From Bidens hawaiensis (Eukaryota; Streptophyta; Magnoliopsida; Asterales; Asteraceae), in the NCBI GenBank assembly GCA_021521415.1, contig JAIQDT010000172.1:2004501-2068500 (forward strand): DNA of 64,000 bases, written 5' to 3'. The notes under the pieces are model-generated. The model had not been told where the DNA came from and did not search any database. It saw nothing but the letters and a program-made list of their open reading frames with translations. A program made the position numbers and the translations under genes. Numbering within the stretch: the first letter of the stretch is position 1; each line of letters starts with the position of its first letter. Of this stretch, positions 1,677 to 61,561 are shown one piece after another.

Positions 1677-4600
1677 GGTTCATCCAAGACCATTTCTGGT
1701 GAAAACTGGATCATGGACAGTGGATGTTCTCGTCATGTTACTGGAAATCTCAATCTCTTATCAAACGTGAGAAATATTCAAGGGGGTTATGTGGCATTTG
1801 CTGGGAATTCCGGGGGTATGATTACGCAAGAAGGTGATGTGTCAAATGGGAAGATTACTTTTGAGAAAGTTTATTATTGTGATAAAGTGGACCATAATTT
1901 ATTGAGTGTGTCGCAAATATGTGATAAGCAATACACTACAGTATTTACAGATAAAGAGTGTCTGATTCTGAAACCGGGTTATGTGATTCCCGAGGACATG
2001 GTTGTCATGCGATCACCACGATCAAATGATATTTATGTCTTGAATATGAATTCTAAAGTATCTACATCGATCGAAACGTGTTTTGTCTCAAAAGCAACCG
2101 AGAAAGACTCAGTGCTTTGGCATCGAAGAATGAGTCATATACATGTTCGAAAGATGAACTACCTAATGGCAAACGATTTGATAGAAGGGGTGTCATTAAA
2201 GAACTTTAAGTTATCTGATCACTGTGTTTCTTGCAAAAAGGGCAAACAGAAGAAGAAATCGCACCCCTCTAAGTTACTAAATTCCATTGATACTCCACTT
2301 GAACGACTTCATATGGATTTGTTCGGTCCAGTGAATCGTGCGAGTATTTCTGGAGACTGGTATTGCCTAGTCGTGACTGATGATTATTCGAGATACTCAT
2401 GGGTCTTATTTATGAGTTCGAAAGATCAAACGCCTGTTTTGGTACAAAACTCTATCACTAAAATCGAATCACTTTACAAACAAAAGGTGAGGAGAATTTG
2501 CAGTGATAATGGAACTGAATTCAAAAACACTATATTGGATTTCTTTTGTCTTGAAAAAGGAATTCACCGTGAATATAGTGCACCTTATGTACCTCAACAA
2601 AATGCCGTTGCTGAACGAAAGAATAGAACTTTGATTGAAGCTGCAAGGACTATGCTCGCTGATTCTAAGCTTCCTGTACAATTTTGGAATGAGGCGGTGA
2701 ATACGGCTTGTTATACACTCAATCGTGTTCTAACAGTTAAACGACTCAAGAAGACCAGTTATGAATTATTGAATAATCGTAAGCCTAACTTAAAGTATTT
2801 GGAACCTTTTGGGTGCCCTTGTACTATGATAAGAAGGGATGTGGGTAAATTTGATGAAAAGGCCATTGAAGGTTATTTCTTGGGGTATGCGTCTCCTAAG
2901 AAACGGGTTTTTCATTTTACGTCTGGTTGTGTTGAGGAGTGGTACCATGTTGACTGTCAAAAGTACACCACTCCTCTACAAGGGAAAGGTCCCGACTGGA
3001 TGTTTGACTACGATGGATTGTTCAATTCATTTACTCCTTCAACCGATCATCCAGATGAAGATTTAGTCCGTGCTTATTTTGAAGAACATTTAGAAATGCC
3101 AAGATTTGCAAGTTCAAATGATGTTGAAGCTCCATTGGTTGCTCCAATTGAAGAACCTGACAATGAGTCTCCTGTTCATCATGATAATACTTCTACTTCA
3201 TCTGATGATAATGCAATTGTGGATCAAGTTATTGAACTTGACAGTGATGTTTCATCTCCTGAATTGGGTGAACATTACACTAATTTATTTGAAAATGTTG
3301 CTGTTTCTGAAAATCCTACTGTCAGGATTCATAATTACCATCCACAAGAAAACATTATTGGAGACCTTGATTTAGGGGTTCAGACACGACATCAAGTTGC
3401 TTCTTCAAGTGATAATAATGTTTTATGTGCTTATGCCGATTTACATTCCACTGGTATTGTAAATACAGCTAAATTCTCTTGTTTTTTATCCCAAGTTGAG
3501 CCTACAACTCCTCGTGTGGCTCTGCAAGATCCATCTTGGGTAGAAGCCATGCAAGAAGAATTACAGCAATTTGCATGTTTAGGTGTTTGGGATCTTATTG
3601 ACAAACCTGCTAGAGTCAAGAAGGCAATTCCGACTAAGTGGGTATATAAGTGTAAGAAAGATGATCGTGGGGTAATTGTGAGAAACAAGGCACGTTTAGT
3701 GGTGCAAGGTTTTCATCAGCAAGAGGGTATTGATTACACTGAGGTGTATGCTCCAGTTGCAAGATTAGAGTCGATTCGAATCTTCCTGGCATATGCTGCT
3801 TACAAGAATATCAAGGTGTATCAAATGGATATTAAGAGTGCTTTTCCCAATGGTGAACTTCATGAGGAAGTGTATGTTTTACAGCCTCCAGGTCTTGAAG
3901 ATCCTGATTATCCTGACTGTGTTTACCAATTAAACAAGGCATTATATGGTCTACATCAAGCCCCGAGAGCTTGGTATGGCACGCTCGCCGACCATCTGAC
4001 GGATAACGGTTTCAAACGTGAAACTGTGACTGCACTTTATTTTATAAAAATATTGGTGATGATCTTCTGCTCGTTCAGATTTATGTTAATGACATAATTT
4101 TTGGGTCTACATACGACATGTTGTGTAAGGAGTTCGAGAAGTCTATTCAAACCAAGTTCGAGATGAGTTCGATGGGAGAGATGAATTTCTTTTTAGGGTT
4201 GTAGGTTCATCAGTCTGCGAAGGGAATCTTCATTCATCAGACAAAATATGTGAACGATGTCTTGGACCAATTCAAGATTACTGCCGGAAAAATCCCTTCT
4301 ACTCCTCTTCCCGTGGGTCACAATTTATCACCGGACGAATTGGAGGATACCGTTGATCCGACCCTCTATCGTGCCATGATTGGTACTTTAATGTATTTAA
4401 CTGCTTCTCGACCCGACATAATGTTTGCTGTTTGTTTATGTGCTTGGTACCAAGCTAGTCCCCGAGTGACTCACCTGGCAGTGGTCAAGCGTATTCTTCA
4501 ATATCTACGGGGAAATCCTGACATCGGGTTATGGTACCCCAAAGATGATACTTTCGATCTTACTGCTTACACAGACTCAGATTATGGAGGATACAAGATC

Positions 4601-5043
4601 AATTTCAAGTCTACTACAGCGGGATGTCAATTCTTAGGAAGCCGGCTTGTTTCCTGGCAGTGTAAGAAGCAGACAACGGTCTCCACTTCAACCGCCAAAG
4701 CTGAGTATGTTGCAGCCTCGAGTTGCTGTTCCCAGGTTTTGTGGATACAACAACATCTTCGCGACTACGGTTTGAAGTTTCTTACTACTCCCATCTTGAT
4801 TGATAATTCTGCTGCTATTAGTATCACCAAGAATCCCGCACAACATTCTAAAACGAAACATATCGAAATTCGATATCATTTTATACGGGATTGTTATGAA
4901 AAGAAATTAATTGATCTTGAGAAAGTGCACACTGATTTTCAAAAAGCCGATCTATTTACCAAAGCGTTTGATAAAACACGTTTTAATTTTTTGCTTGGTT
5001 TAAATGGATTGAAGACCCTTGCTGAGATCCTAAAATTAGGATA
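1677..5043 (+). pseudogene. copia element A pol: protease, integrase, RT, RNase H
   Basis: This is the polyprotein for cDNA synthesis and integration. Protease: MDSGCSRH active site at 1713. Integrase: zinc-binding HRRMSH and CVSC (about 2120-2240), then a DDE core with DDYSRY, SDNGTEF and the Glu in VAERKNR. RT: the VQGFHQQ region (about 3700) and a catalytic motif that reads YVND instead of YVDD (4082-4093). RNase H (4250-5043) has TDSDYGG and STAKAEYVA. The main frame is open from 1713 to about 4025, where a single-base loss shifts it; a stop follows at 4201-4203 (CAG to TAG compared with copy C). The protease motif looks intact but RT should be dead. Confidence 0.92.
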
Positions 5044-5694: not shown

Positions 5695-6505
5695 GCTCCT
5701 CAAAATTTTGAGTTTTTGAAGCAAAATGAGAAAATGATAGTACATTGATTATTTGACCCCAAATCCAGAAAAGAAATAAGCTTAAAAGGCTATGTGCTTA
5801 ATCATCAGTGTATTGATAGGTCTTAAACAAGAAATTAGAGTAAAGTAAGTGATATAAACTTAAAGTAAACCCAAATTGAAAGAGGTGTTAGTCTCTAGCA
5901 AAAGTCTCGGTGAAGATGGCAGAAATGTAATAACCAATCATACTCAAGCTTTATAATTGTTGATCACCCAAAAATCTGATAAAGAAAATAACAAGCGTTA
6001 GGATTCTGGACACTGTGAGTCTTTATACGGCTTAATCATCTGGGTATTCATAAGCATGAATATTTCACTCGCTTTCTAGAGCAAACCCAAAGTCATTAAA
6101 CTTGATCAATGCTGTACTTTGTACAATCTAAATTACTGACTTGATCAAAATTCGCTGTTAGTCATACAATTGTTCCTCCCTTGCGTGCGTCTCAATACCA
6201 ATAAGAAACAGACCCCAGGGGATACAATGTATGTAAGCCGACAGATGGACTCATGCATACTCACTCACAGTAAAGGAAACTTGATGCATCGCTCAGAGTT
6301 TGTCAATTGGTATCAAATTTTGATCAACATTATAATGGTTTAAGTCAAGTTGGGGCGATTTGGAAAAAATCAAATTAAGCTTGAACCGAGATTAGAGGCT
6401 GATAGTTTCTGATATTCTGTGCGCTAATTGAACCATAACTCATATCACAAAAATGCTCGAAGGTTTGTTATAAGATTTAAGTGGACAACAATATCAATGA
6501 CCGAC
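5695..6505 (+). other. conserved noncoding block shared with copia C and with Athila (copy A)
   Basis: There is no open frame. Islands of near identity recur in the same order at 29043-29855 and, on the opposite strand, at 58625-59471 inside a Ty3/gypsy Athila element. Landmarks here are CTCAAAATTTTG (about 5699), GTGATATAAA (about 5849), ATCTGGGTATTCA (6038-6050), AGAGCAAACCC (6078-6088), GACTTGATCA (about 6138), the strongest island at 6176-6275 (with GTCTCAATACCA and ATGTAAGCC), TTTAAGTCAAGTTGGGG (about 6340) and TTTAAGTGGACAA (about 6477). Spacers between the islands differ. The pattern suggests a constrained RNA or DNA element; function unknown. Confidence 0.75.
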
Positions 6506-7113
6506 TTAACGCCAGCAGTAATATAGCTGAAATATAAAACTGTGATAGAAGGGCATTTTGGTCAATATGATTCTCTGCTCAAACTCAACAAAAATACAAA
6601 AATATGTACTGCTTTTGATAAATCATTGAAAAACACAAAAAGATTGTCCAATTTTTATGTTCGGATGCTTCTTTGTAAATACATTCTTTAATTTTTACAA
6701 AATACCAAAAATATTTTATCTTTCGTACTTTACAGATTATTTAATATACGAACTAGCTCAGATTATTTAATATACGAACTAGCTCAGCGAACCACTTCCT
6801 CATCGAATCAAATACTTACTCATCAAATCTGTAACGAACTAGACTTTAGTTCGTTAATCTTTTATAGTTATGTCATTGTGTCTCTTTCGTTAATTTTTTT
6901 ACCTGATAGCAAATTACTTGATTCGTTACTACATGGTAACGAATCAGAGTGATATTCATACGAATGACATATCATTTTAATGATTTAATTAAATTAAAGT
7001 TACCTTTTGCATTAAATACATTATTTCAACCGTCTAAATGCATTAATTACACACGACAAACTGTAATTATTTCTTCATATTACTCATACCTTTCTAAATT
7101 CTATTCAGTTAAA
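6506..7113 (+). promoter_or_regulatory. spacer with clustered TTCGTTA/TAACGAA motifs upstream of third ORF (copy A)
   Basis: The stretch 6735-6965 holds about ten copies of the core TTCGTTA, its complement, or the variants CGAACTAG and CGAATCA. They include a 21-bp-scale duplication around TACGAACTAGCTCAG. The same core forms the hairpin stems of this family's LTRs. The cluster ends about 150 bp before the ATG of the third ORF, so a regulatory role for that ORF is possible (inference). Nothing else is recognisable here. Confidence 0.45.
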
Positions 7114-10100
7114 ATGGTTGATCAAGTAAATCAAGATCCACCGGTTGTCGATCAAGGGCAACAAGAACAACCACCACTAGGCCAACCTCCTCAAGTATAG
7201 AAAGAAGATGTTATCTTATTACCGTATGACAAAAAACACAACATTTGTGCATACGTTGATCAAGATGTTGCTGATGTTGCTGAGTTTGGAGACATGTTGA
7301 CATTCTTAAGACGTTCAGTAATATATTATGCAATCACCGCTCGACCTAAAGTCTATCTAAGCATTATCAGGCAGTTTTGGAATACTGCTGTGTATGTTGA
7401 GGGAGAAAAACACATTCGAGCCACGATTAATCAAAATGTTATTACAATTGATGTGGAAGTGGTTCTTCATGTGCTTCGATTTGGTGACAATGATGACAAC
7501 CCGAGTGAGTTTAACAAGCAGCTGATCAAGGGTTTGTTTACTCGTCTACATTATGGTGGTGATATTGATAAATCTTTGTTGAACAAAAATGGTTTATGCC
7601 CACCATACAAGTATCTTCTTCATGTTCTAATTCATTGTATGAGTGGTCGTCGTGGAGGATTTGATGAATGTAGAAGCAGTATACAATCGGCTTTTGTTGC
7701 TCTTATACTCAACAAGCCATTTAACTATTCTGAGCTGGTTTTTGATCATTTGAAAGAACAAGTTCATCAGACGACTCAGTCGAAGAGGTTTCTAATGTAT
7801 CCCCGATTTCTACAATTGATAATTCAAGATTTGATTCCAAACTTGGTAATTAATCAAGCTTTAAGGAATGATGCGCTTCCTTTGGAACACATGAAGGCAG
7901 ACACGGTACGTCGAATGAAAGTGTATCGTAAAGAGAAGCCTCGGGATAAATGAATGATTGGTCATATAATTAATCCTAATTATGTATGTCCTCCTGATGA
8001 ACGCTAGATCCATGACGACTCGGATTCCGAGCGTGAAGGGGGAGAAGGTGGGAACGATGAAGATGATGATGGGAATGATGATGGTAATGATGGTGATAGT
8101 GGAGCTGGTGATGCAGATCTTAGAGAACAACAAGCTACAGTTGAAGCTGCGTTAGCTGCCACCATTGCAGCTAAACAAGAACGAAAGAGGAAAGGGAAAG
8201 CGGTGGCAACTGGAGAGCCATCGAAGAAAAGACGTGTTTCCACTGGGGCAGGGGTAATTATTGGTGTACCACCACCTCCTTAATCAAAGCCTCAACGCTC
8301 GGTAGTGCCGCCTACTACTAGCACTCCGATGCTTACATTGACTACGACGATGGTGTCCCATGAAAGGCTTGGTTTAATTCCTCAAATGGCGTTAACTGAA
8401 ATACCAATGCCTCCTGCTACATTGTCAACAATCCCTTCAACACCATCCATAAGGCCTCCTCCTCCTCGTCCTACTCCACCTCCTCCAAGTGATGTCTCAT
8501 TTATAAGAATCACTCGGCCTCAGGGACCGATTCAACCTGTTCATCCCTCACTATACAACTTACCACCAAACCGTCAGACTGAGATGCTGCTGAATCTTCT
8601 ACATCTTTGAAAACCAAATGGCAGCTGACCGTCAGAATCAAGAACGTCTTATGGAGAATCAAAGATGGATGATGAGTTATATCTCATTTTGTCAAAAGGA
8701 GACTAAAGCGCTGCGAGCGATTGTTGAGTCTCAGGGGGTGAAAATGAAAGAACAAGAAGAACTAATTTTGCAATTGACTTGCAAAGAAGATGCCCTTAAG
8801 AAACTCAAAAATGACGATCAAGATCCTGACGAGTCTGGTGCAGGAGGTGAGCCTAAACAATCGCATGATTCATCTTCCGGTGCTGGTACAAGTGGCAGTG
8901 AAGACTCGGGTAAACAGATTATTATATATCAAGATCCAACTGCTGCTAAGCCAATTGAGATGATTGCGGCTAATACTGTGATATTTGTGGATGGTTAGGA
9001 GTGTGGTGAAGAGAGATGAGATAGAGTTTGGTGAGTTTGTGGATAGGTCTCTGACACGGGATCAGATTTCTATATTGCTTTGGCTGAATGACGATCAGTT
9101 GACTGCTTTAGAGACTGAGCCTAATCTAGAGGTGGTGAATGAGGAAGGTATATCGGATGATCTGTCAATTCAGATGAATACGGACTTTATTTATTAAGAT
9201 GAGGATGTTGAGATGGAAGATGTAACTGCTGAGGAGTATCCGGACTTGTTTCAACACACTAATGTTGATCAAGGTTCTCCGGTATTTGATGAACAGACGG
9301 TTAAAGCGGCAGAAGATGAATTGGAGAAGGTGTTGAAGTGTAAGCGGACAGTTCAGTCACTTGAAGTCATAACTGATGATGATATTGAAAGATGGTTCAA
9401 ACGCCAAAAGTGGGTAAAATCATCAGTGCGTATCGATATGTTGATCAAGAACGTGAAGACACCGCTGCTGCATGGGTTAAAGAAAACCAAGTGACCTCCT
9501 TCAAGACTGTTTCCAAGGTATATGGTGATATTGTCTCATGGCTTTATGATTCTGAGCTTAAAGTATGTATAATTAAATGGGAGAAGGGGATCCAGTACTA
9601 CGAAACGATAATGGATGTTTTGACATTATCGTGTTGGGATGTTTGTACCCTCGCGAGACGTTCATTTATCAATCGTGGTGGTTACCGGACAGCTGAGTGG
9701 TTTCATCAACACTTACTGTTTGAGGTCAATCATGGCTTCAAGTTCTTCAAGCCCCAGGACCCGAGACGCAAACGCATTGATGAGATTGATCCAAGGACTG
9801 GCTGGAGAAAACTTGTTCTTAAGGTAAAGCCGCCAAAGACGATGTAGCGGGTTCCTGTGAAGACGATGCCCCAACAGATGCATCTCTCATTCAACCACTG
9901 GTATTATGACAATCGTATTGGCGAGGCATAATTGTCCTTGGTAAAGGACTAAAAACTGAGCTCATCAAGATAATCGACCCGATGTGGTTGGTTAATTTAT
10001 CTGAGACCGATAATGACGTGCTCCATAAGAAACAGATCCTGATCGAGCACAATGAAGACTACGACCTGGCTATGCAATTCCAACGCGTTGTGCGTGTTTG

Positions 10101-10155
10101 TTATGAAAATGGAATTATTAGTTGCAGAGACTGGCAGTCCAAGCGCTTCAAGTAA
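7114..10155 (+). pseudogene. third ORF of copia element A (unknown function), degenerate
   Basis: It is a long extra ORF between pol and the 3' LTR. It starts at MVDQVNQD (7114) and ends at a TAA aligning with the stop of copy B. Recognisable parts are: an N-terminal globular region (7200-7950) with YDKKHNICA, FWNTAVYV and PHLLHVLIH-like segments; an acidic Asp/Glu/Gly run (8010-8130); a Ser/Thr/Pro-rich linker (8240-8560); a coiled-coil-like stretch (8618-8830); and a basic C-terminal region (9380-10150) with RTAEWFHQH, EIDPRTGW and FNHWYYDN. In-frame stops lie near 7198, 7951, 8006, 8281, 8608, 8996 and 9195, with frameshifts near 9410 and 9930. I see no signal peptide or membrane anchor, so it is not a classical envelope. 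It resembles unnamed proteins common in Asteraceae annotations. Confidence 0.75.
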
Positions 10156-10189: not shown

Positions 10190-10710
10190 TGTTAGTGCAC
10201 GGTTTTGCATCTTGAGTCTTTGTAATTATCGTTAACGTATTTGTTTATGTTTAATGTAATAATTCATTAAGTTAAAGGCTAGTTCGTTATATGTATTGCC
10301 TAGTTCGCTAGGGATGTTAGCGAACTAAGATTTAAGGTTATTCCCTCTGATTCGTTAGGGGGTGTTAACGAATCAGAGGATGATTCATCTTATTAATGTA
10401 TGTAACAAAGTATCGTCTGGTTCGCTAGGGGATGTTAGCGAACCAGACCTATCTTCTATATATAGTGAACACTTTTCACGTTTAATTTAAGTTTTGAGAG
10501 TTAATTAACGAAACCCTATCCAAATCCTCTCTCGATCTTCATCCTAACATTATAACATAACTAATACATATATACTGATAATATATAAACATATATAACA
10601 CTGAACCTAAGGTAAGTATGATCTAGATCTATAGTTAAGGTATTAATCGGTTTAACACAGATCCGAGATCCGTTAATTATTATTAGATTGATACTGTCCA
10701 GGTTCCAACA
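10190..10710 (+). repeat. 3' LTR of copia element A
   Basis: It runs from TGTTAGTGCACGG to GGTTCCAACA (521 bp). The first bases match the LTR starts of element B (minus strand) and element C. It contains three hairpins (10300-10448), a TATA box CTATATATAG (about 10457-10466) and downstream R/U5-like sequence. Confidence 0.85.
10300..10466 (+). promoter_or_regulatory. triple hairpin plus TATA box in LTR A
   Basis: Three successive inverted repeats occur: 10300-10328 (stem TAGTTCGCTA), 10344-10379 (stem CCTCTGATTCGTTA) and 10415-10448 (stem GTCTGGTTCGCTA). The loops are GGGATG(T)-like. The last ends about 8 bp before CTATATATAG. The same order is found in all LTRs of the family here, with stem changes that preserve pairing (compare 34350-34528). 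A promoter role is inferred from position. Confidence 0.7.
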
Positions 10711-11437
10711 TTGGGCAAAACACAATTTGTGCCCGAAGTAACCATTATCATTACTCGAGATCAATCTTATATGTTCATTGTATGCCCGGTACATCAAAAC
10801 TTCATTTCTGTATCATCAATTACTTATTTGCCCTTGTAGAACCTGCTTGAATATTCACTTAGCATTTGCTACAACAAACAATGATAATATTGCCTTTAGT
10901 ACCTATTCATTCTTGACTTGTACCTTCTTCATACCAGTTTGTACCAACGGCAACGTTTTCCAATATACCATATCCTGTTTGTGCAGCACATTTATCAAAA
11001 TCAATATCGAGCAAACAAAAACCCTAATTCTTTGAGATTGAAAAAGTAGTTCCGAAATCTGAAAAGAATCGATGAGAAATATCCAGGTCATCTCGAACTA
11101 AATAAAAGAAATCTATCTTCAATCTTATCCACAGCCTTTTCAGATATGGAAATCATCAAATAAACAGAGTTGCCCCAAAACGAGCCAAATAACACTGTTA
11201 CATCAGATCCGGACCATTCTGACCAAATAAACATGAAATTGATGTTGGATCTCTAAACGAGTCATCAACCCAAACATCAATCCATATACTTTTCTCCAAA
11301 TCATCAAATAATTTCAAAACCCCCAAAAATAATTTCAACGAACTTCATCATTTAACGTCCATGGTGGATTCAATAGCGAAATGAATCTATTCAGCAGTTA
11401 GTCTGAACGATTCAGTAACCCAGGCTCTGATACCAAT
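10711..11437 (-). mobile_element. leader fragment of an older minus-strand LTR retrotransposon
   Basis: This is internal sequence on the minus strand just downstream of a primer-binding site. GCTCTGATACCA at 11424-11435 is, on the minus strand, TGGTATCAGAGC, complementary to the 3' end of plant initiator Met-tRNA; the LTR begins 2 bp away. I could not recognise gag in the 700 bp remaining before element A cuts it off at 10710. Small ORFs here look like chance. Confidence 0.55.
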
Positions 11438-18737: not shown

Positions 18738-19366
18738 CTAATTCTGATGAAGATTATGATCAAGTAGACCCTGATGATTTGGATCTTATGGATCTTAAAT
18801 GGAACATGGCGATGATCGTGAGAAAAGTGAAGAAGTTTATGCAAAGAACTGGTAAAGATTTACCTGCATTGAACAAGAAGATTGGGTTTGATAAGCTAAA
18901 AGTCAAGTGTTTCAATTGTCAAGAATTTGGTCATTCGCGAAAGTGTAATAATGCTGATAAACCATCTGGTGGTAAACCGTCTGCTTCGGAATCACAAGCC
19001 TTACTTTCTTCCGTTGATGGAACTAATTGGTCTCAACGTTTATTATGCAACGAGAATCAAGCAAATTGGCTATGTTTGAGACACATGAAAGGTTTCAAGA
19101 TGCAAGTGGGAATGAACTATCATCTGAAATTGACACTGATTCAGACTCTGATGATTCTTGTTGTATGCAGCCAACTACATTTGCATGCATGGCTAAGATC
19201 GATGAGGTTAGTCCTTATTCTTCTAACTTTGTTAATTGTCTGCTAATGTGCCTTGTGTTACTTGTGAGACAAACAAGACTAAGTTAGAAACTTTGAAAGC
19301 CCATAATGACAGTTTGGTAAAGAAATTGCTTCACTTGAGGACACTTATAGACAATCATTAGAATCT
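18738..19366 (+). pseudogene. copia element C gag, upstream part
   Basis: Copia gag sequence with the zinc knuckle CFNCQEFGHS (about 18910-18950; its last cysteine follows a short indel), an acidic DTDSDSDDSC stretch and the beginning of the coiled-coil region (CETNKTKLETLKAHND, about 19260-19310). This covers gag upstream of what the window contains for element A. Stops and shifts are present. It is cut at 19366 by element B; AATCT at 19362-19366 is the left target duplication. Confidence 0.78.
19362..19366. repeat. target-site duplication AATCT, left of element B
   Basis: AATCT precedes TGTTGGATCC here and is repeated at 23540-23544 after CACTAACA. The copia gag coding sequence continues across the pair. 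Confidence 0.9.
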
Positions 19367-19875
19367 TGTTGGATCCCGGATTAACAGTCAATCGATAACA
19401 ATAAACAGATCTCAGATATGAAACTATCCGATTACCACTATTAACGATCTAGTTCATAGTTTACCTTGATTTAATGTTATGTATGTGTATATATTATCAA
19501 TAGATTAAACGAATAATGTTAAGGTGAAGCTTGAGAGAGAGCAATTACTGAAAACTTTTCTCTCCAAAACCTCTTTTACAAAATGAACAGTAGTTCACTA
19601 TATATAGAAGGCGACTTGGTTCGCTAACATCCCCTAGCGAACCAGCTTCCCCTTCGTTACATAAATTATCATAGCGAACCACCCCCTGATTCGTTAACAT
19701 CCCCTAACGAATCAGGAGGGAATACATTATAATATCATAGTTCGCTAACATCCCTAGCGAACTAGACTTAACCTTAACGAACTAGTCAATAATAAACATA
19801 AAATATTACATTAATTAATGAATAAAACATTAACGATAAATACAAAGACTCTAGACGCAAAACCGTGCACTAACA
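19367..19875 (-). repeat. element B 3' LTR
   Basis: It runs from TGTTGGATCC to GTGCACTAACA on the + strand (509 bp). It is nearly identical to 23039-23539 apart from a few substitutions and an 8-bp length difference near the outer end. The triple hairpin is at 19616-19646, 19685-19717 and 19737-19763; the TATA box reads CTATATATAG at about 19598-19607. The adjacent PPT is the complement of CCTCTCGTCTT at 19881-19891. Confidence 0.92.
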
Positions 19876-19909
19876 GACACCCTCTCGTCTTGAGGTCTTT
19901 TTCTTTAAC

Positions 19910-22124
19910 TTATTTGAAGCGCTTGGACTGCCAATCTCTGCAACTATGAATTCCATGTTCATGACACACACGAACGACTCGTTGGAATTGCATAGCCAGG
20001 TCGTAATCTTCTTGGCGTTCAAACAAAATCTGCTTCCTGTGTAGCACGTCGTTGCCTGTCTCTGATAAATTAACCAACCACATTGGGTCGATTATCTTGA
20101 GGAGCTTAGTCTGCAGTCCTCGACCACGAACAATAACGGCCTCGCCAGTACGATTGTCATAGTACCAACGGTTGAAAGACAGATAAATATCTTGAGGCAT
20201 TTTCTTCACAAGAACCTTTTTCATCGTCTTTGGCGACTTCACTTTCAAGACAAGTTTCTTCCAGCCGGTCCTTGGATCAATCTCATTAATGCGCTTACGT
20301 CTTGGGACCTGGTGTTTGAAGAATTTGAAGCCATGATTGACCTCGAACAGTAAGTGTTGATGAAACCACTCAGCCGTTCGGTGACCCCTACGATTGATAA
20401 ATGGACGTCTCGCGAGGGTACGTACATCCCAACGCGGTAGAGTTAAAACATCCATTATCCTCTCGTAATACTGGACACCCTTTTCCCACTTTACTATACA
20501 TACCTTAAGGTCATAGTCATAATCCCATGAAACAATATCACCGTGTACCTTTGAAACAGTCTTGAAGGTAGTCACCTGATTAGCCTCAATCCAAGCAGCA
20601 GCAGTATCTTTTCTTTCTTGATCTACATAACGATAAGCACTGATAATTTTACCCACTTTCTGACGTTTGAACCATCTTTCTACGTCCTCAGCAGTCACTT
20701 CTTTGAGTGAAGGAACTGTTCGCTGCACAACCTTTTCCAGGTCATCCTCAGTCTCTTTAATTACTTCTTCATGAAATACCGGAGCACCTTGATCAACGTT
20801 TGCGTGTTGGTACAAGTCCGGGTACTCTTCAGCTGTAACATCCTCCATCTCAATCTCTTCATCCTCATAAATAAAGTTCGTGTTCATAAATATCGGATCA
20901 ACTTCCAATTCTTCCTCAGTTATCACTTCGACATCGGGCTCAGTCTCTAAAGCAGTCAACTTATCGTCATTCAGCCCAAGCAAAATCGAAATCTTCTCTC
21001 GTGTCAAGGATCTAATCACAAACCCACCAGCCTCTATCTCATCTCTGTTTACCACACTACAAACTACCCCTGATCCATCAACAAATACCACTGTGTTAGC
21101 TGCAATCATTTCAATTGGCTTGGCAGCTGTTGGATCTTGATAAATAATTATCTGCTTGCTCGAATCATCACCGCCACTAACATCTGCACCAGAGGATGAA
21201 CCATGTGATTGTTTAGGGTCACCTCCTGCATCAGACTCGTCAGGATCATCATCGTTATTCTTAAGTTTCTTGAGGGCATCTTCATTACAAGTTAATTGTA
21301 AAATCAACTCTTCTTGTTCTTTTAATTTCACCCCCTGAGACTCAACAATCATACGTAACGACTTAGTCTCTTTTTGACAAAAAGAAATATAACTTATCAT
21401 TCGTCTTTGATTCTCCATGAGTCGTTCTTGAGTTTGACGGTCAGCTGCCATTTGATTTTCATATAGATGTAGCAGATTTAACAGCATTTCAGTTTGACGA
21501 CCTGGTGGCAAGTTGTATACGGATGGATGAACAGGTCCTTGAGGCCGAGTAATTCTCATGAAAGAGACATCACTAGGCGGAGGTGGAGGAAGAGTAGTTG
21601 TTGGCGGAGGAGGAGGTCTCATTGATGTAGTAGAAGATACTGTAGAAAATGCAGCAGGAGGTCTCGGTATCTCGGTTAACGCCATTTGAGGAATAAGACC
21701 GAGCCTCTCGTGTGACACCATCGTCGTCGTCAAGGTGAGCATTGGAGTGCTAGTAGTTAGCGGCACCGCCGAGCTTTGAGAAGTTGATTGACGTGGTGGT
21801 GGAGTTCCAATAATTATCCCAGCCCCAGCAGACACGCGGGGCTTCTTTGATGGTTCACAGTAGCTACAGGTTTACCCTTTCTTTTTCTTTCCAGCTGAGC
21901 TTTCATGGTGGCAGCTAGAGCAACATCGACTGCATCCTGTTGTTCTTTAAGAGCACGTTCACCAGCTTCACCATCACCATCACCATCATCATCTCCACCA
22001 TCATTGTTCCCACCTTCTCCCCCTTCACGCTCGGAATCCGAATTATCATGGATCCAGCGCTCATTAGGAGGACATACGTAATCCGGATTGATTATATGAC
22101 CAATCATCCGTTTATCCTGTGGCT
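19910..22124 (-). CDS. third ORF of element B (N-terminally truncated), longest intact copy
   Basis: A 641-residue frame is open from 21835 to 19910. An overlapping frame (22107-21814) supplies the preceding acidic segment through an apparent one-base deletion near 21855. Residues about 1-100 are Ser/Thr/Pro-rich. Residues about 105-200 look coiled-coil. Then come a conserved region with PTAAKPIEMIAANTVVFVDG, an acidic segment, and a basic C-terminal domain of about 250 residues (RWFKRQKVGKIISAYRYVD, RTAEWFHQHLLFEVNHGFKF, EIDPRTGWKKLVLKV). The N-terminal region present in copies A and C is deleted. No signal peptide or membrane helix is seen. Function unknown. Protein similarity to copies A and C exceeds what the diverged DNA suggests, which implies past selection on the protein. 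Confidence 0.7.
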
Positions 22125-22580
22125 TGTATTTTCAACGAATAAGGTTAACGAATCATCCAAATGGCGAATAAGATGATGGTTTAGCGAATCACAAGTCAAC
22201 TTAGCGAATCACAAGTCAACTTAACGAATTGACTAAACGAATCACAAAGGATTAGTTTAGCGAATCAAATGATAATCAGTAACGAATCACTAAGAAATAC
22301 TTAGCGAATTAATATAACGAATCAACTATAGTTGATTAACAAATCACACTATAGCAAATCAGGTTGTTACAACCGTTTGTAACAAACTCTGACACCTTAT
22401 GCCACGTGGCAAAGGTTGTTATGACACAAATCCTAAGAAGAACACGTGTCACACGAATCGGTTAATCTAGTTAACGAACTAGATAACACGAACCAATAAC
22501 TCACATGAATTGATTAACGAAATGGGTAGCGAATTACCACTGTTGATAACGAATCACCAAGAAGAAGATAACGAATTACA
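22125..22580 (-). promoter_or_regulatory. dense array of TAACGAATCA/TAGCGAATCA motifs in element B
   Basis: About 17 copies of a CGAAT/CGAAC core, mostly (A/G)CGAATCA, lie in about 450 bp, all in one orientation on the + strand and irregularly spaced. Two adjacent units share the flank CACAAGTCAACTTA. The core equals the stem sequence of the LTR hairpins. The array sits upstream of the ORF in element B's own (minus) orientation. This region replaces the N-terminal coding region found in A and C. Confidence 0.6.
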
Positions 22581-23024
22581 TTCATCTTCAAATCTTCAAA
22601 ACTTCAAACGAATTTCCAGAAATTTTGAAGATCAAACCCAGAAACTCAACAATACCAAATTCGTAATACAACCTCGTTACTCAACCAAAATGCACAAATA
22701 ACCTACCAATCTACTCGTAAACCAAACCCGAATTCAATACACATAACCTCGTAGCCGATTAACACCTTAAACCAAATCAATTTGATCAAAAACAAACCCC
22801 TGTTTCGGACTTAAACCAAAACCAAAACCAAACCACACAAATCCAAATCAAACCTCAATCTCTCTTAATCCACACCTATCCAATACCTTAACCAACACAA
22901 ATTCATTCAATCCGTCCATAATTCAACCAAACTAAACAAAAATTGATTCAAAATCGAACAAAAACCAAAAAACTTGATAACAATAACAATTAACACATCA
23001 AATCAAGTGTAAAGAGCACCAACA
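22581..23024 (-). other. untranslated leader of element B
   Basis: A-rich, C-rich, gene-free sequence on the + strand with many short CAAACCAAA-type runs, lying between the PBS and the motif array. Nothing is recognisable beyond its leader position. Confidence 0.5.
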
Positions 23025-23036
23025 GCTCTGATACCA
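23025..23036 (-). other. tRNA-iMet primer-binding site of element B
   Basis: GCTCTGATACCA on the + strand is TGGTATCAGAGC on the minus strand, complementary to the 3' end of plant initiator Met-tRNA. It lies 2 bp inside the 5' LTR boundary at 23039. Confidence 0.9.
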
Positions 23037-23038
23037 CT

Positions 23039-23539
23039 TGTTGGATCCCGGATTAACAACTCTGATAAACAGATCACAGATCTGAAACTATCCGATTACC
23101 ACTATTAAAGATCTAGTTCATAGTTTACCTTGATTTAATGTTATGTATGTGTATATATTATCAATAGATTAAACGAATAATGTTAAGGTGAAGCATGAGA
23201 GAGAGCAATTACTGAAAACTTTTCTCTCCAAAACCTCTTTTACAAAATGAACAGTAGTTCACTATATATAGAAGGCGACTTGGTTCGCTAACATCCCCTA
23301 GCGAACCAGCTTCCCCTTCGTTACATAAATTATCATAGCGAACCACCCCCTGATTCGTTAACATCCCCTAACGAATCAGGAGGGAATACATTATAATATC
23401 TTAGTTCGCTAACATCCCTAGCGAACTAGACTTAACCTTAACGAACTAGTCATTAATAAACATAAAATATTACATTAATTAATGAATAAAACTTTAACGA
23501 TAAATACAAAGACTCTAGACGCAAAACCGTGCACTAACA
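23039..23539 (-). repeat. element B 5' LTR
   Basis: It runs from TGTTGGATCC to CACTAACA on the + strand (501 bp) and is the partner of 19367-19875. Hairpins lie at 23282-23311, 23349-23381 and 23401-23429. The high identity to its partner suggests recent insertion compared with the strongly diverged A and C copies. Confidence 0.92.
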
Positions 23540-29042: not shown

Positions 29043-29855
29043 TGTTCCTCAAAAATTGAGTTTTGAAGCAAAAAGATAAAATGATAGTACATTGATCATT
29101 TGACCCCATATCCAGAAAGAAATAAGCTTAAAATACTGAGTGCTTAAGTGCATTGGTGCATTGATAGGTCTTAAACAAGCTGTTATAGTAAAGTATGTGA
29201 TATAAACATAAAAGAAACGCCAAATTGAAAGAGGTGTTAGTCTCTACCAAAAATCTCGGTAAGGATGGCAGAAATATAATAGCCTGTCATATTCAAGCCT
29301 TATTTTTGTCTGATCACCAAAAATAAAATAAAGCAAATAACAAGCGTTAGGATTCTGGATACTGTGAGTCTTTATGCGACTTAATCATCTGCGTATTCAT
29401 ATGCATGAATATTTCAATCGCTTTTAGAGCAAACCCAAAGTCATTAAACTTGATCACTGCTGTACACTATCCGAACTAAACTACTGACTAGATCAAAATC
29501 CGATGTTAGTCATACATCTATACCTTCCTTGCGCAGGTCTCAATACCAGTAAGAAACGGACCCCAGTGAATACAATGTATGTAAGCCGACAGATGGGCTC
29601 GTGCATACTCATTCACAGTAAAGGAAATTTGATTCATTGCTCAAAAATTTATATAAATTAAAATTTTGATCGATATCGTAATGTTTTAGGTCAAGTAAGA
29701 GTGATTTGGTAAAAATCAAATTAAGCTTGAACCGAGATTAGAGGCTGATAGTTTCTGATATTCAGTTCTTTAATTGAGCAATTAATCATATCACAAAAAC
29801 GCTCGAAAGTTTGTTATAAGATTTAAGTGGACAACTATATCAATGACCGACTTAA
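29043..29855 (+). other. conserved noncoding block (copy C)
   Basis: Collinear with 5695-6505. It keeps CTCAAAAATTGAG, GTGATATAAAC, ATTCATATGCATGAAT, AGAGCAAACCC, the island at about 29535-29625 with GTCTCAATACCAGTAAG and ATGTAAGCCGACAGATG, and GATTTAAGTGGACAAC at about 29820. The GTCAAGTTGGGG island is degraded here. A small ORF at 29843-30082 that begins in this block is fortuitous. Confidence 0.72.
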
Positions 29856-31281
29856 CGCCAGTCACAATATCACTGAAAGATAATACTGTGATGGAAGGGC
29901 AAATTGGTCAATATGATTCTCTGCTTAAACTCACCAAAAATACAAAAACATTCAAAAACACAAAAATATTTTACTTTTACTTTTCGGATATTTTACTTGT
30001 AAATATTTTAATACAAACATGCGAAATACCAAAAAGATTTTTCTTTTTAGTTTACATATTATTTAAATTCATTTTAAATTAAGTGTTTGATCGTAAAACA
30101 CGTTAAGGTATTTGATCATCGGGATACGGTATTTCGTTGTCTTATATATTAATTTTAGTATTCTTTATTTAATTGATTTATTTATTCAATTTAAATTAGA
30201 TAAATCTAGTTCGTTATTTATGAATAACGAATTGGGGCCATTTACAACGAATTACATTTCAATCCGTTAACTTAATTCGCTTCCGCCACTCTGTAGCGAA
30301 TAACCTTTAGTTCGTTATACATAACTTAACGAATCAAGCACGAACTAAGCACAAATTACTACTAATTCGTTAATAACTAGTGTTAAGTTTTAATGATTTA
30401 AATTTAATTCATGTGCCACGCGTTTTAAATGTGATAACGAATCAGTTGACTCGTTAATTCAAATTTTAACGAATCAAATGATTCGTTGCCTTGGAGATTG
30501 TGACACATCGTGATATATAGGGAAAAGCGAAAACCGATTCGTTTCTCACTTTTCACTTTCTTCGTTCTTAAGAAAAGTTACTATGGCAAAAATTTTTAGA
30601 AGACCCGATCTTAACCATATTCAACTTTGACTCACATTTCTGATTCGTAAGGTAATTGGTTTCAAAACATGATAGGTTTCGTCAGATTTGATGAACGTTT
30701 TAGGGGTTAATTAATCGATTATATTATCGGTTTTTAAGTTATACATAAAACCTACAATTTACCTAACTTATACCATGATTTGGTGCAAATGGACAATATG
30801 AATCATGTTGCGATGTGTTTCCGAGATACTTGTGATCATCTGTTCGGCCTTACATCGTCAATCATGTGCGAATTGCATTCAGATTGCAATTTTGACTTGG
30901 ACTTTAATAAGTCAAATATTAAGCCTATTAAGGGTCATTCGTTATGTTGTGACGAATTGGAACTAATTTGTGTTCAATTCGTTACACCGATCAAACGAAT
31001 CAGGATATTTATCATAATTTATAACGAATCAAGCTTTAATTCGTTATTCTTTCACTCATGATTAGTTAGAGGTAATTCGTATTATTTACTTGATAACGAA
31101 TTAGCCAATTTGTCATAGCGAATCACCATTTCATTATAACGAATCAGCTTATTTAACGAATGACATTTTAAATTATTATAAAATTGATAGTTTATAAATT
31201 AGTATAATTTTAATATTTTATTTAAACTTAATATTATGTTTTATTCGTTTCACTAAATCTCGGGTTTATGTATTATCAGTT
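29856..31281 (+). promoter_or_regulatory. spacer with dispersed TTCGTTA/TAACGAA motifs upstream of third ORF (copy C)
   Basis: From about 30195 to 31170 more than twenty copies of TTCGTTA, TAACGAAT or close variants occur in both orientations, some as close inverted pairs. The cluster ends about 110 bp before the ATG of the third ORF at 31282. A promoter-like TATATAGG lies near 30513. No protein-coding sequence is recognised; the ORF at 30780-31061 has no family resemblance. Confidence 0.5.
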
Positions 31282-34230
31282 ATGGCTGACAATATGTATC
31301 AAGATCTTCCTGCTGCTGAGCCACAACAACAACAACAAGAACAAGGTCTTCCGTTGCTTTCGTACGACAAGAAGCATAACATTTGTGCTTTTTTTGGTAC
31401 GAACTTTGCTCACGAAGATGTGTTTGGGGAATTATTAGCTTTTATCAGACGTTCACACCATTCATTATGCTGTAACGGCGAGTTCGACTGTTCATTTCAG
31501 CATTGTTCGTCCTTTTTGGAACTCGGCATGCTACATCGAGTCCGAGAATCATATAATAGCTGAAGTCCAAGGACAGTCTATCACGATTACTCATGGTTTG
31601 ATCCGTCGAGTTCTGCAGTTTGGGGATAACATGGATAATCCATGTGAATTTGACAAAGGGTTGATTAGAGGACTATTTAATCGTGTGTTTTACGTTGGTG
31701 ATCTTGACATGACCATGTACAAAAAGGCATACTTGTGTCCCACATACAACTATCTACTGCATGTATTAATACATTGCCTTGTTGGACGAAAGGGCGGCTT
31801 TGATGAGTGTCACATCATGTTACAATCAGTGTTTGTTGCCCTGATTTTAAACAATCCCTTCAACTTCTCTGAGAAGATTTTTTATCATCTAAAGGAGAAT
31901 TGTCTTGTGGTGAATATACGCAAGAAATTTTTAATGTATCCACGCTTAATTCAACTGATCGTCCAAGACTTGATTCCAAACTTGGTGATTAATCAAGGTG
32001 TAGTTGATGATGTGTTGCCATTGGAACATATGAAGGCTGATACCATCAGGCGTATGAAGACGTATAGAAAGGATCAACATCCTTGAAATAAGCGCTTGAT
32101 TGGTCATCTAGCCAATCTTTATTATGTATATCCTTCTGATGATTGTTGGATCCACAACGATTTGGATTCCGAGCATGAAGAAGGTCCAAGTGGGAACGAT
32201 AGTGATGGTGGTTATGATAATGATGGGGGTGATGGTGGTGATCTGGGTCAACGACAAGCTGAGGTTGAGGCATCTCTGCTCAAGCTGCTCAACGTAAACG
32301 GAAAGGGAAAGAGGTGGCCGGTGAAGGGTCATCTAAACGTCGTGTGACAGCTGGTGCTGGTGTTTCATTTAGAGTTCAACCTCCAAGGTCTTCTGCTCCT
32401 CAAAGACCGGTGGTGCCGCTTACTACTAGCACCCCGGAACTTACATTGACGACCACACTCACATCGGATCCTCGACTTGGAATGATTCCACAATCTTTTA
32501 TATCTACATTGCCAAGGCCTACTACAACATCGGTGATTTCTCTAACACCGACGATAACACCTTCACCACCTATGGACATTTCATTTATGAGGATTAATCG
32601 ACCTCAAGGATCTGTACAGCCAGTGCCTCCGTCTTTTCATGCTATGCCTCATGAGACTCATATGAACATGCTCTTGAGTCTAGTTCATTTTTATAAAAAT
32701 TAGATGGCTGCTGATCGTCTGGCTCAGGATCAGATGCTGGAAAATCAAAGAAGGCTGATGGGATACATCTCGTTTTGTCAAAAGGAGACAAAGGCTATTC
32801 GTGAGATTGTTACGTCTTAGGGGGTGAAAATTAAAGAACAGGAGGATCTGATTCTGCAGCTTACTTGTAAAGATGATGCTTTGAAGAAGCTAAATGACGA
32901 AGAGGAACCAGATGCCTCGGGTGCAGGGGGAAGTTAGCTGAAACAAACTCACGGTTCATCTTCCGGTCTACGAGTGCTGCTCGTAATGTTGATAAACAGT
33001 TGGTTGTTTATCCGGACTCGACGAATGCTAAACCCATTGAGTCGATAAAAGCCAATACTGTTATATTTATTGATGGTACGGGGTGGTCAGAAGCATTGTA
33101 AATGCTGATGATATAGAAGTGGGACAGTTTGTGGAAAGGTCCTTAACACGAGAGCATGTATCTATACTACTGGGTTTGAATGAATTTGAGCTGAACGTGT
33201 TAGAGACTGAGAATGATGTGGAGGTGGAGAATGACGAGGAAATCCTAGATGATCCAACAATTCAGATGAACACGTCATTTATTTATGAAGATGAGGAGGT
33301 TGAGATTGAGGATGTGACGGCTGAGGAATACCCTGATCTGTTTCAAAGAACTATTGTTGATCAGGGTGCTCCTGTATTTACAGAAGAAAATGTTAAAGCA
33401 GCCGGAGACCACTTGGAGAAAACGTTAAAGGGTAAGAGTATTGATACCAGATTCGACTCAAAGCAAAATCCAACTGTTTCTGATATTCAAGGATGGTTTG
33501 CTTGTCGAAACAAGAGAACTCGTAAGATTTTAGATGCATACAGATATGTTGATGAAGAACGAAAGAAGGAAGCCATTGTACATGCTAAAGCCAATCAAAT
33601 AACTTCTTTGAGGGCCGTGTCAAAAGTTCGAGGTGATATTATTTCATGGATTTTCGATTCTGATTTAAAGGTCTGTATCATCAAATGGGAGAACGGTGTT
33701 CAGTACAATGAAAACATTACTGATGTTCTCTAATTACCGCGATGGGATGTCCGTACCCTCACGTGTCGACCTTTCATCAACTGTGGTGGAAATCGTCAAG
33801 CAGAATGGTTTCATCAACATTTGCTTTTCGAATTCAACCACGGGTTTAAATTCTTTAAGTCACAGATTCCAATCCGTAAACGCATTGACGAGATAGATCC
33901 AAGAACGGGTTGGAGGAAGCTTGTGCTTAAAGTGAAACCACCAAAGACTATGAAGACCGTGTCAGTCAAGACGCTGAATCGACATATTTATTTTTCTTTC
34001 AACCGTTGGTACTATGATAATTGTACTGGAGAGGCCGTTATTGTTTTGGGAAAGGGCTTAAAGACCGAGCTGATTAAGATTATTGATCCGATGTGGCTCG
34101 TGAACTTGACTGAGACCGACAATAATGTGCTCTTCAAGAATAAGATATTAATCGAGCACCGTGAAGACTATGACCGAGCAATGCAATTTCAACATGTTGT
34201 TCGTGTTTGTCATGAGTTCGGGATTCAAGA
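31282..34230 (+). pseudogene. third ORF of copia element C, degenerate
   Basis: It starts MADNMYQDLPAAEPQ, followed by a Gln run and the N-terminal region (SYDKKHNICA, then RRVLQFGDNMDNPCEF and GGFDECHIMLQS up to about 32090). An acidic run follows (32160-32250), then a Thr/Pro-rich linker (32340-32690), a coiled-coil-like part (32700-32900) and the C-terminal domain (33480-34230; AEWFHQH and EIDPRTGWRKLVLKV). Frames shift or stop near 31500-31600, 32085, 32300, 32701, 32818, 32936 and 33733. Relative to copy A about 55 bp are missing at the 3' end, so the last about 11 codons are lost and the frame runs into the LTR. Confidence 0.75.
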
Positions 34231-34242
34231 CGAGGGGGTGTC
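34227..34242 (+). other. polypurine tract, element C
   Basis: AAGACGAGGGGG plus TGTC directly before the LTR TG; it matches the tracts of A and B. Confidence 0.8.
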
Positions 34243-34640
34243 TGTTAGTGCACGGTTTTACGTCTCGAGTCTCTGTATTTATAGTTTTGTCTTTATTATT
34301 ATTATAATGAAAAAGTTATTAATACTATACACTAGTTCGTTAAAGTAAGTCTAGTTCGTTAAGGGTGTTCAACGAACTAGATAGTTAATTTAAGTTAACC
34401 ATTCGTTAAGGATGTTTAACTAATGGGATCTTAGTTCGTTATGTTTATTGATTATGTGTAATGTAACGAAGTGGAGTCTAATTCGTTATGGAATGTGTAA
34501 CGAATTAGCTCCATCTTCTATATATAGAGGTTCATACATCTATTAATTAAAAGTTTTGGCTAATTAACGTATTGAAAACCTGTCTGATTCTCTCTCGATC
34601 AAAACTTCACATAAGCTATACATAATTCACATATTACAAC

Positions 34641-34677
<37 letters not shown>

Positions 34678-35358
34678 AGAGGATCATGAGAGAACTCTAT
34701 TTTATGGAGAGAACTAGAGAACTAATAATTAAGTATTTTTAATTTAATTAAAAAAAATTTTAAAATTTTTTTTCTTTCATCCTTCTTATATGTTGTTATT
34801 CTTCGCCACAAAAAAAATAAAAACAAAAAAAAATATTAAAAAAGTAAAAAAAATTAACGTTGTAATGCATATATGCAATACATCGACTTTTTTTATAATG
34901 TATATGTGCAATAGTGTGCATTTTGATATTTGAAATAATGTTGAATATCATATATATAGTTGTTTGTATTGTATATTTGCAATAGTGTTATATTATATAC
35001 AAAAATTAAAAAAAAATCGATATAGTGCATATGTGCATTAGTGTTGTATTACATATATCCAATATTGTGTTTTGCATACAACTATTAGTCTTGTATTTGC
35101 ATATATACAATAGTGTGTATTAGATAATGTATTTGTGTTGGTATATATGCAATAAAACACTATTTTATATATACAATACACATTAATGCACATACGCATT
35201 ACATCGACGTTTTTTTTTCTTTTTTTAGGAACAATATCATCTTATTAGAATGAAGAAAGAAAAAAAATCACAAAATAATTTTTAAAAATAGTTAAAAATA
35301 ATTCTTTACTAGTTCTCTAGTTCTCTCTTTAAGAGGAGTTCTATCTAGATCTCATCCC

Positions 35359-47188: not shown

Positions 47189-47264
47189 GTTAGCAAATTA
47201 GAAAATAAATTAAAAACATAATGAAAAATGTGTTAAGACAGTTAATGGATAAGTTCGACCCCAA

Positions 47265-47365
47265 CCAGGGGCTCTGCCCCTTGGACCTGCTAGGGGCAGC
47301 CGCCCCTAGACCCCACTGCCAGGGGCGCTGCCCCCGGACCCCCGTTCGTTGTGGGTTATATAAAG
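47265..47365 (+). promoter_or_regulatory. three GC-rich hairpins and TATA box in Tekay 5' LTR
   Basis: Palindromes CCAGGGGC..GCCCCTTGG (47265-47284), CTAGGGGC..GCCCCTAG (47290-47309) and CCAGGGGC..GCCCCCGG (47319-47337) are followed by TTATATAAAG. The same arrangement occurs at 54508-54609. A promoter role is inferred from position only. Confidence 0.6.
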
Positions 47366-49530: not shown

Positions 49531-49532
49531 GA

Positions 49533-53432: not shown

Positions 53433-53459
53433 TAGTTAGGTTTCGGGGACGAAACCGCT

Positions 53460-58624: not shown

Positions 58625-59471
58625 CACGATCATCGATATTATTGTCCACCTAAACCCATGCCTTAATCTTTACCGGGACAAATAAGATCCGACAATAATA
58701 TTACTTAGTGGTTTACACAATTAAGACCCGCTTATTTTCAGCTTTTACCGGACCAGACCACCCCAACTTGACTTAAACCTCAAAGTTAGCAGATTTAAAA
58801 CTTTGTTGCTCCATATTTATGAATATTTAAGATGATCAAGGGTATTGTTTATCCACCTAAGCTTAAGCATCAAAGTCTACCAAGCAGCCATTAGATACGA
58901 TTAAGGTTCAATTTATTAATAGCTAGTGTTCCCCACAACATGACATACCCCCGTTATCAAGCAATACCCTAAATCCATCACCATAGGTGAGTATGCAAAA
59001 TTTCATCTGTAGGGCTTACATGTAGCGTGTCCCTTGTGGTCCGTTTCTTAATGGTAATGAGACGCGAGCAAGGGGACCCCACATGGCTAACAGCGTGGAT
59101 GATCAAGTCTGTAGTGTATTTGTACTTTTGTACTTTTTATGATCATGTTTATAGACTTATAAGGGTTTGCTCTTTGGCTTTATTTTAAATATCCACAACC
59201 CCACTTTGGAATTGTGAATACCCAGATAAATAGATTGCATACAGACCCATGGTCTCCGGACCCGAAGCATCCCATCAATACAGGATTTAAGGTTATAAAA
59301 CCATACGCCAATGAGGTGTAAAACACTAAACTAGCAGTTTAAGATTTATATCACAGGCTACACGGCATACTCTAACGTTAAACCTACCCAAGCATCATAT
59401 GATAACGTATTCAAATTTTTAAAACTCATGATACTACCACTTTTTTTTTTCATACCAAAATTTGAGGCTTG
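58625..59471 (-). other. conserved noncoding block shared with copia elements (Athila copy)
   Basis: On the minus strand the islands run in the same order as in copia 5695-6505: CCTCAAATTTTGG (about 59455-59470), GTGATATAAATCTTAAAC (about 59340-59357), ATCTGGGTATTCA (59215-59227), AGAGCAAACCC (59164-59175), GACTTGATCA (about 59108), the strong island 58986-59100 with GCGTCTCATTACCATTAAG and ATGTAAGCC, TTTAAGTCAAGTTGGGG (58758-58778), and TGGACAATAATATCGATGA (58627-58655). It has no ORF and lies about 125 bp from the 3' LTR. Confidence 0.75.
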
Positions 59472-60437: not shown

Positions 60438-61561
60438 TTATATCTCAATCGTGCCATACGGGAAAACCTCAGTGACCGTGAACGGTCCCGACCATCGGGA
60501 TTTCAACTTTCCCGGGTATAACCTCAACCGTGTGTTATACAGTAAAACCTTATCCCCACACTTGAACTGCGTATTACCCTTCAATTTCCTGTCATGCAGT
60601 TCCTTCGTATGCTCCTTATACCGAAATGATTGTGCATATGTGTGATCCTGGAACTCCTCTAATTCGTGTAATTGATGGAAACGATTACCCTCTGCGGCGG
60701 GTAAATCAAGATTAACCCTTTGAAGGGCCATGAAGCGCGGTGTTCCAATTCAACAGGAAGATGACAGGCCTTCCCATAAATCATCTGAAATGGTGTGGAA
60801 CCAGTCGGAGTCTTGTAGGCTGTATGGAAGGCCCACAAAGCGTCATCTAATTTGTCGGACCAATCCTGACGATTTGAACCAACCGTTTTCTCGAGAATAC
60901 GTTTGATTATCCGATTACTCACTTCTACTTGCCCACTAGTCTGTGGGTGGTAGGCGGTCGCAAGCCGATGGGTGACCCCATAACGCTTCAACGCCTTATC
61001 CATCTGCGAGTTGCAAAAGTGAGTACCTCGATCACTAATCAAGGCTTTCGGGACTCCAAAACGAGCAAATAGACTTTTTAGAAAACGGACTACCACTCGG
61101 GCATCATTGGTGGGTAGAGCTTTGGCCTCAACCCACTTAGACACGTAATCGACGGCCACGAGTATGTATTTGTTTCCACGCGAAGATGGAAACGGTCCCA
61201 TGAAATCAATACCCCAAATATCAAAAACCTCACAAACTTGAATGGCATTCTGGGGCATTTCGTTTCGCGAAGAAATGTTGCCGACACGCTGGCAACGATC
61301 ACAACTCTTAACGAACATATGAGCATCCTTAAAGATTGACGGCCAGTAAAAACCAGAATCAAAGACTTTCTTTGTCGTAGAACTCACACCGTGGTGACCT
61401 CCAGTCGGTCCCACATGAAAATGGCTCAAAATTTGCCATCCTTCCTTGACATCTACACACCTTCTAATAAGCTGATCAGCACCAATGCGGAAAAGATATG
61501 GATCGTCCCAAAGGTAAAATTTGATGTCAGCAAAGAATTTCTTCTTTTGCTGGTAAGACAT
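60438..61561 (-). pseudogene. Athila integrase
   Basis: Zinc finger [12 protein letters not shown] and CDRCQRVGN (about 61270-61420). DDE core with [17 protein letters not shown] (about 61195), [13 protein letters not shown] (about 61000) and [15 protein letters not shown] (about 60930), with D, D and E all present. C-terminal domain RLRLYPGKLKSRWSGPF (about 60490-60545). A one-base shift at about 60735 splits core and tail. The zinc-finger and core frame of 300 codons is otherwise clean. Confidence 0.93.

Follow-up and report, generated by a model that had tools for sequence, protein, structure and literature searches.

A constrained non-coding block shared by Ty1/copia and Athila-type retrotransposons of Bidens hawaiensis, possibly part of an exchangeable 3' cassette

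The VANC system of the Arabidopsis VANDAL elements, DNA transposons of the Mutator-like element (MULE) type, is built on an anti-silencing protein that the element itself encodes (PMC5735166, PMC10398659; here and below, citations refer to the accessible portions of the articles). Athila families exchange env modules (PMC2410132), and bdelloid retroelement types share open reading frames (ORFs) (PMC5408684). A sunflower methylation study reported methylation-distinct Tork and Athila clades; according to its authors, the presence of similar ORFs in these clades and their effect on the epigenetic landscape 'remains to be investigated' (PMC12844716). Here we describe a non-coding block shared by two retrotransposon superfamilies in a stretch of 64,000 nucleotides from Bidens hawaiensis (contig JAIQDT010000172.1), which is referred to as the window. 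The block is found in two copies of a Ty1/copia family and, on the minus strand, in an Athila-type Ty3/gypsy element (Table 1).

A sequence-only reading of the window had proposed that the same islands recur in the same order in these three places. In a blastn comparison of the window with itself, copia 6078-6264 and Athila 59173-58987 (minus) aligned over 193 bp with 72% identity (E 2e-15); 29527-29611 of copia copy 2 matched the same Athila place (E 2.5e-8). Gapped local alignment of copia copy 1 with the Athila linker scored 160.8 against a mean of 61.8 (standard deviation 6.8, maximum 77.8) for 60 dinucleotide shuffles, so the similarity is better than that of composition-matched random sequence; copia copy 2 scored 172.4 (shuffle mean 69.7, standard deviation 7.3, maximum 93.8). 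Collinear exact matches of at least 10 bases added up to 110 bases between copy 1 and Athila, a total reached by 0 of 300 shuffles, and to 98 bases between copy 2 and Athila (1 of 300), and exact-match chains from four unrelated stretches of the window came to 31 to 66 bases. Eleven words taken from the alignment, chosen by eye before counting, are collinear between copy 1 and Athila from GTGATATAAA (5849 and 59354) to GTGGACAA (6481 and 58649). Ten of them are also present in copia copy 2 and are thus collinear in all three blocks; within the window seven of the eleven are confined to the blocks and the four shorter ones occur elsewhere as well. With blastn and shuffle tests in agreement, the block similarity between copia and Athila is real homology.

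The extent of the block and its internal spacing differ in part from what had been proposed. A start at 5695 in copia and 59471 in Athila could not be upheld, as the match is convincing only from GTGATATAAA on (5849, 29197 and 59354 minus); the gapped alignment extends upstream of this word, with no blastn support there. Spacers of similar length were found across the central ~230 bp (6038-6264), where copia and Athila distances are 40/54, 60/64, 18/17, 33/29, 42/42, 10/11 and 13/13, but not in the outer parts, where GTGATATAAA and ATCTG are 189 vs 127 apart and TGCATACTCA and TTTAnGTCAAGT 85 vs 220. The island GCGTCTCA, listed as common to the blocks, is replaced by GGTCTCA in copia copy 2.

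The block is constrained and non-coding. The two copia copies differ at 129 of ~895 positions in the block (~14%), evenly by codon phase (42/49/38), and the differences in the part of pol that encodes reverse transcriptase (RT) and RNase H fall 30/24/84. At pol third positions 84 of 279 sites differ (30%) and the block is less diverged (p 1.4e-8), which agrees with the constraint suspected from the sequence. Windowed identity between the copia copies, all of it derived from a single alignment, was 82-90% in 5701-6600, 51 to 88% in pol windows, 52-58% in the spacer 6751-7200, 53-76% in the third ORF (ORF3) and 57-63% in the long terminal repeat (LTR), so that the block is on par with the better conserved parts of pol. 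A coding origin was rejected: all frames are interrupted (longest stop-free run 67 codons) and codon periodicity is absent.

The block is present in many copies across the host genome of 3,474,515,312 bases. With up to 3 mismatches, the core word was found at 6585 + 6592 = 13,177 places, compared with 0 + 1 for a reversed-pattern control. Among the first 100 exact core places, which are the first by contig and not a random draw, 52 had the Athila spelling, 32 the copia spelling, and the remaining 16 were spread over four different spellings; additional families may thus have the core. The closest matches to each block were scored, and 40 of 40 agreed both for the copia core (97-100% identity; best 40 of 3864 unconfirmed first-look candidates) and for the Athila core (98-100%; best 40 of 2909 such candidates); the similarity is therefore not confined to one chimeric locus. 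Thirty loci per family were then compared, each set including the window's own copy (L001, L045). Copia-type RNase H adjoins the block in 29/30 copia loci. In the 30 Athila loci the words of the block were found as follows: GTGATATAAA in 29, ATCTGGGTATTCA in 26, AGAGCAAACCC in 28, the core in 29, ATGTAAG in 30, TGCATACTCA in 30 (in locus L064 first found elsewhere in the locus), TTTAAGTCAAGTTGGGG in 25 and the last word in 27; 22 of the loci have two AAGTGTGGGGATG words. Locus L028 stood in the wrong orientation in one layout comparison. Two local arrangements were also observed: contig C3334 carries Athila-block matches at 143149, 187411 and 231649 on one strand, ~44.25 kb apart as if in a 44-kb tandem repeat, and contig C6 has two block cores on the same strand, 223 bp apart (1175111 and 1175334).

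As proposed, the block lies downstream of pol in both superfamilies, and the superfamily labels hold. The copia family has RVT_2, rve and SH3 domains (1677-4094) together with gag_pre-integrs, and the other element has a gypsy integrase with H2C2 and rve (60662-61606). Copia copy 1 is ordered as pol (to 5041), block, motif array, ORF3 (ATG at 7114, to 10152) and LTR (from 10190). The array is composed of the short motif TARCGAA/TTCGYTA, first spotted by eye in the LTR alignment. Of the 75 occurrences of this word in the window, 67 fall in copia-family non-coding DNA totalling 5.06 kb, where shuffles predict ~2; gag-pol and ORF3 (15.9 kb together) have one, and the other seven lie elsewhere. 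In three LTRs, 54/70 motif columns are invariant vs 183/394 other columns, where a motif column is one with the motif in any row and motif copies in related LTRs are non-independent. Motif units are present in 30/30 copia loci. The 14 longer copia stretches each have 5-18 units in their third 500 bp, and an almost motif-free ORF3 part; an ORF3 match was found in 12 of the 14 (in one only a C-terminal fragment), and in nine the match is followed by another 7-9 clustered units, with the LTR start word found in five of these nine. Because none of the three blocks contains it, the motif was rejected as what links block and ORF3; the Athila linker and LTR are free of it too.

Over 206 residues, the fold predicted for ORF3 can be aligned with VANC21, and it matches the DNA-binding-domain fold of VANC proteins. 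The likeness is one of predicted fold, and a profile of 46 sequences matched no VANC chain in PDB at E 10. ORF3 matches PF20167 (Transposase_32) with E 1.7e-5 and 1.5e-6 (25.3 and 28.6 bits), below the gathering score of 45, and 33 of 46 aligned members match this family at E 0.01. A viral structure library gave no match at E 0.001. In P0014, a Bidens gene model of 817 aa, an N-terminal region of the ORF3 type is fused to a C-terminal region for which there is likewise a match at the end of ORF3 (9530-9928 and 20572-20066).

A deletion derivative of the copia family is inserted in copia copy 2, with 96.5% identical LTRs and an AGATT target duplication. It carries a largely same-orientation TARCGAA array (22146-22569) and, without interruption, 653 aa of the C-terminal part of ORF3, and the window search found neither a gag-pol nor a block match in it. 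Its 5' LTR is followed by TGGTATCAGAGC, which we take to be an iMet-type primer-binding site.

The Athila clade is marked by a gypsy integrase, a long non-coding 3' region with an extra polypurine tract (PPT) and its place in the RT tree; the label Athila-type used here is provisional and goes by the gypsy integrase and two PPT-like words. Its block lies between the PPT-like words at 59828 and 58514, immediately before the 3' LTR. Other genomic copies share this layout, with the second PPT-like word at 2236-2241 where found and the upstream one moving from 834 to 965. The Athila LTR was rejected as the source of the block, because in the window it matches itself and two 20-bp stretches and leaves the block unmatched. 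In this element a single frame, broken by two stops, leads from protease to integrase (60662-63160, minus), and no RT or RNase H match was found between the two. The Athila-type element adjoins another element (46188-55686), whose terminal repeats are 95.7% identical and enclose an RVP_2 protease. The exact core pattern was not found in the viral and prokaryote collections, and no relative of the integrase or of the copia RNase H part was confirmed in viral contigs.

Table 1. Positions of the shared block and associated features in the window
Feature	Position	Strand	Remarks
Shared non-coding block, copia copy 1	5849..6505	+	blastn, gapped alignment, collinear words
Landmarks of the copy 1 block	5849; 6189; 6233		TATA-like GTGATATAAA; core GTCTCA..GACC; GTAAG donor-like word
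Shared non-coding block, copia copy 2	29197..29853	+	blastn, collinear words; 86% identical to copy 1
Shared non-coding block, Ty3/gypsy Athila-type element	58630..59354	-	blastn, collinear words
Copia pol, upstream of block	1677..5041	+	integrase, RT, RNase H; two open frames
TARCGAA/TTCGYTA array between block and ORF3, copia copy 1	6832..6943	+	5 units
TARCGAA/TTCGYTA array, copia copy 2	30209..31279	+	16 units (first 14 to 31116)
ORF3 (interrupted), copia copy 1	7114..10152	+	PF20167-like N-terminal domain, VANC21-like predicted fold
ORF3 (interrupted), copia copy 2	31280..34345	+	start approximate
3' LTR, copia copy 1	10190..10720	+	end approximate; 8 motif units
3' LTR, copia copy 2	34243..34800	+	end approximate; 7 motif units
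Deletion derivative of the copia family	19365..23539	-	inside copia copy 2
Gypsy integrase (H2C2 + rve), Athila-type element	60662..61606	-	

We tentatively favour, at somewhat short of an even chance, the explanation that the block is an old, homologous cis-acting module which moved between Ty1/copia and Athila-type elements as part of a 3' cassette, where it serves as promoter and leader of the third gene. In copia this cassette would comprise, in order, the block, the TARCGAA/TTCGYTA array, the third gene with its VANC21-like predicted DNA-binding fold and the LTR with the same motifs. A cassette is favoured because block, array and ORF3 form one unit in copia, a PF20167 ORF is present in a sunflower Athila element and Athila families swap env modules. 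Within it, promoter and leader is the likeliest role in view of the TATA-like word, the GTAAG word and the CAG immediately before the ORF3 ATG of copia copy 1. The block may thus supply the promoter and a conserved 5' leader ending in a donor-like GTAAG, and the array may lie inside an intron that ends at this CAG. The third protein would then recognize the motifs and, in the manner of VANC proteins, counteract silencing, and the Athila family here would have retained the block and lost the gene. From these features we infer the promoter, splicing and anti-silencing functions as well as the exchange and its direction. It is possible, though the chances are against it, that both superfamilies carry an exchangeable anti-silencing cassette made up of a VANC-fold protein, its target arrays and a control block that persists after gene loss.

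The chief finding against the cassette is that the Athila family keeps the block in the absence of the ORF, which favours a cis element serving the element itself: no PF20167 match was found within 1.5 kb of the block in any of the 30 Athila loci, and nine query proteins detected no PF20167 remnant in the window's Athila region. In these 30 ORF-less loci the block has a fixed place, at a near constant distance to the PPT, with the upstream PPT-like word at 834-965. This would suit a cis-acting element of the full-length RNA that the retrotransposon itself needs for packaging, dimerisation, export or plus-strand priming, whether or not ORF3 is present, and that came to be shared through recombination or co-packaging; we regard this as a serious but on the whole unlikely alternative. 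In both superfamilies the block follows pol in the sense orientation, and the window's Athila copy has kept it while showing no RT or RNase H match. Packaging, export and splicing had also been among the functions suggested in the sequence-only reading; the arrays and ORF3 downstream of the copia block point no less to a gene cassette with a control region than to an RNA signal.

The cores of copy 1 and Athila form a similar predicted hairpin, whose shared pairing was matched by 8/300 column shuffles. However, copia copy 2 does not share this hairpin (273/300 shuffles as good), the antisense strand does equally well (5/300) and RNAalifold on the three blocks was reached by 50/500 shuffles. Paired cells made up 98.8% over 26 distinct copia rows and 88.5% over 17 distinct Athila rows, compared with at most 50% with a slid partner, in a table that takes its structure from copy 1, in which most pairs never vary and from which 2/29 copia and 1/29 Athila loci are missing for want of the search word. 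Pairs altered relative to copy 1 are still paired in 5/8 cases in Athila and 1/6 in copy 2. Neither the shuffle tests nor RNAalifold nor the pairing table established a conserved RNA structure in the block. A known structured RNA was rejected, since no Rfam match reached the gathering score in the window, with three sub-gathering matches in 5600-6700. The derivative at 19365-23539 also speaks against an RNA element, as no block match was found in it despite its target duplication and its LTRs of 96.5% identity; loss of the block after insertion is possible.

It is improbable that the block is instead a DNA target, an enhancer or demethylation site, of a VANC-like protein of an Athila lineage that recognizes TGATCA-like repeats and serves ORF-less Athila elements in trans. 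TGATCA occurs 4, 2 and 3 times per block (6.1, 3.0 and 4.1 per kb), compared with a window-wide density of 0.69 per kb; among the 7-mers of block 1, TGATCAA shows the strongest enrichment (p 7e-8, all k-mer p-values being uncorrected). VANC6 also acts on an element to which it is unrelated but in which its motif occurs (PMC5735166). However, there are few such repeats and some of them reflect common descent, TGATCAA is outside the top words of block 2, and the dense copia arrays are made of TARCGAA, not TGATCA. We consider it quite improbable that both families hold an old insertion of a third mobile element whose islands are chance remnants: the ~650 bp of homology without convincing shared flanks would suit an insertion, but the block is constrained between the copia copies, has the same position across the sampled copies of each family and keeps its central spacing to within a few bases. 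Chance or a composition artefact, which short islands in AT-rich DNA might bring to mind, is excluded in practice by the shuffle tests and by 13,177 core matches vs 1 in the reversed control.

No description of such a block was found in the literature searched, most subscription journals falling outside the search. Non-coding DNA of two superfamilies is not expected to be alignable, so a constrained, multi-copy block suggests a control sequence passed between them. Like the Athila env and bdelloid ORF exchanges, it points to 3' modules moving between retroelement lineages; those modules are coding, and the Athila swaps stay within one clade, whereas the block is non-coding and spans superfamilies (PMC2410132, PMC5408684). 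Athila 14 of sunflower, in the same plant family, resembles the copia family here in having a 3' PF20167 ORF downstream of pol, but it is a gypsy element, whereas the PF20167-like ORF of this locus is in copia and none was seen in the local Athila family (PMC11728184). In Sireviruses, too, partly palindromic motifs are repeated in the LTR and reappear 5' of the third gene; their motif core is CGG-CCG as opposed to TTCGYTA/TARCGAA, the family here is known at superfamily level, and a block shared with Ty3/gypsy is not among the features described in the accessible part of that report (PMC2829016). The VANC system shares with the copia cassette a short motif that is densely repeated in the element's own non-coding DNA, in the VANC case also in upstream regions and introns (PMC5735166, PMC10398659); recognition of the motif by the ORF3 protein would follow by analogy. 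VANC proteins are encoded by VANDAL/MULE DNA transposons, whereas ORF3 lies between copia pol and copia LTR. The host is thus an LTR retrotransposon, the motif is TARCGAA and is missing from the shared block, no sequence similarity was found and an anti-silencing role is suggested by analogy. The present locus offers a protein, a motif and a block with which the question raised by the sunflower study can be tested, and if ORF3 is of the VANC type, sequence-specific escape from silencing would not be limited to Mutator-like DNA transposons.
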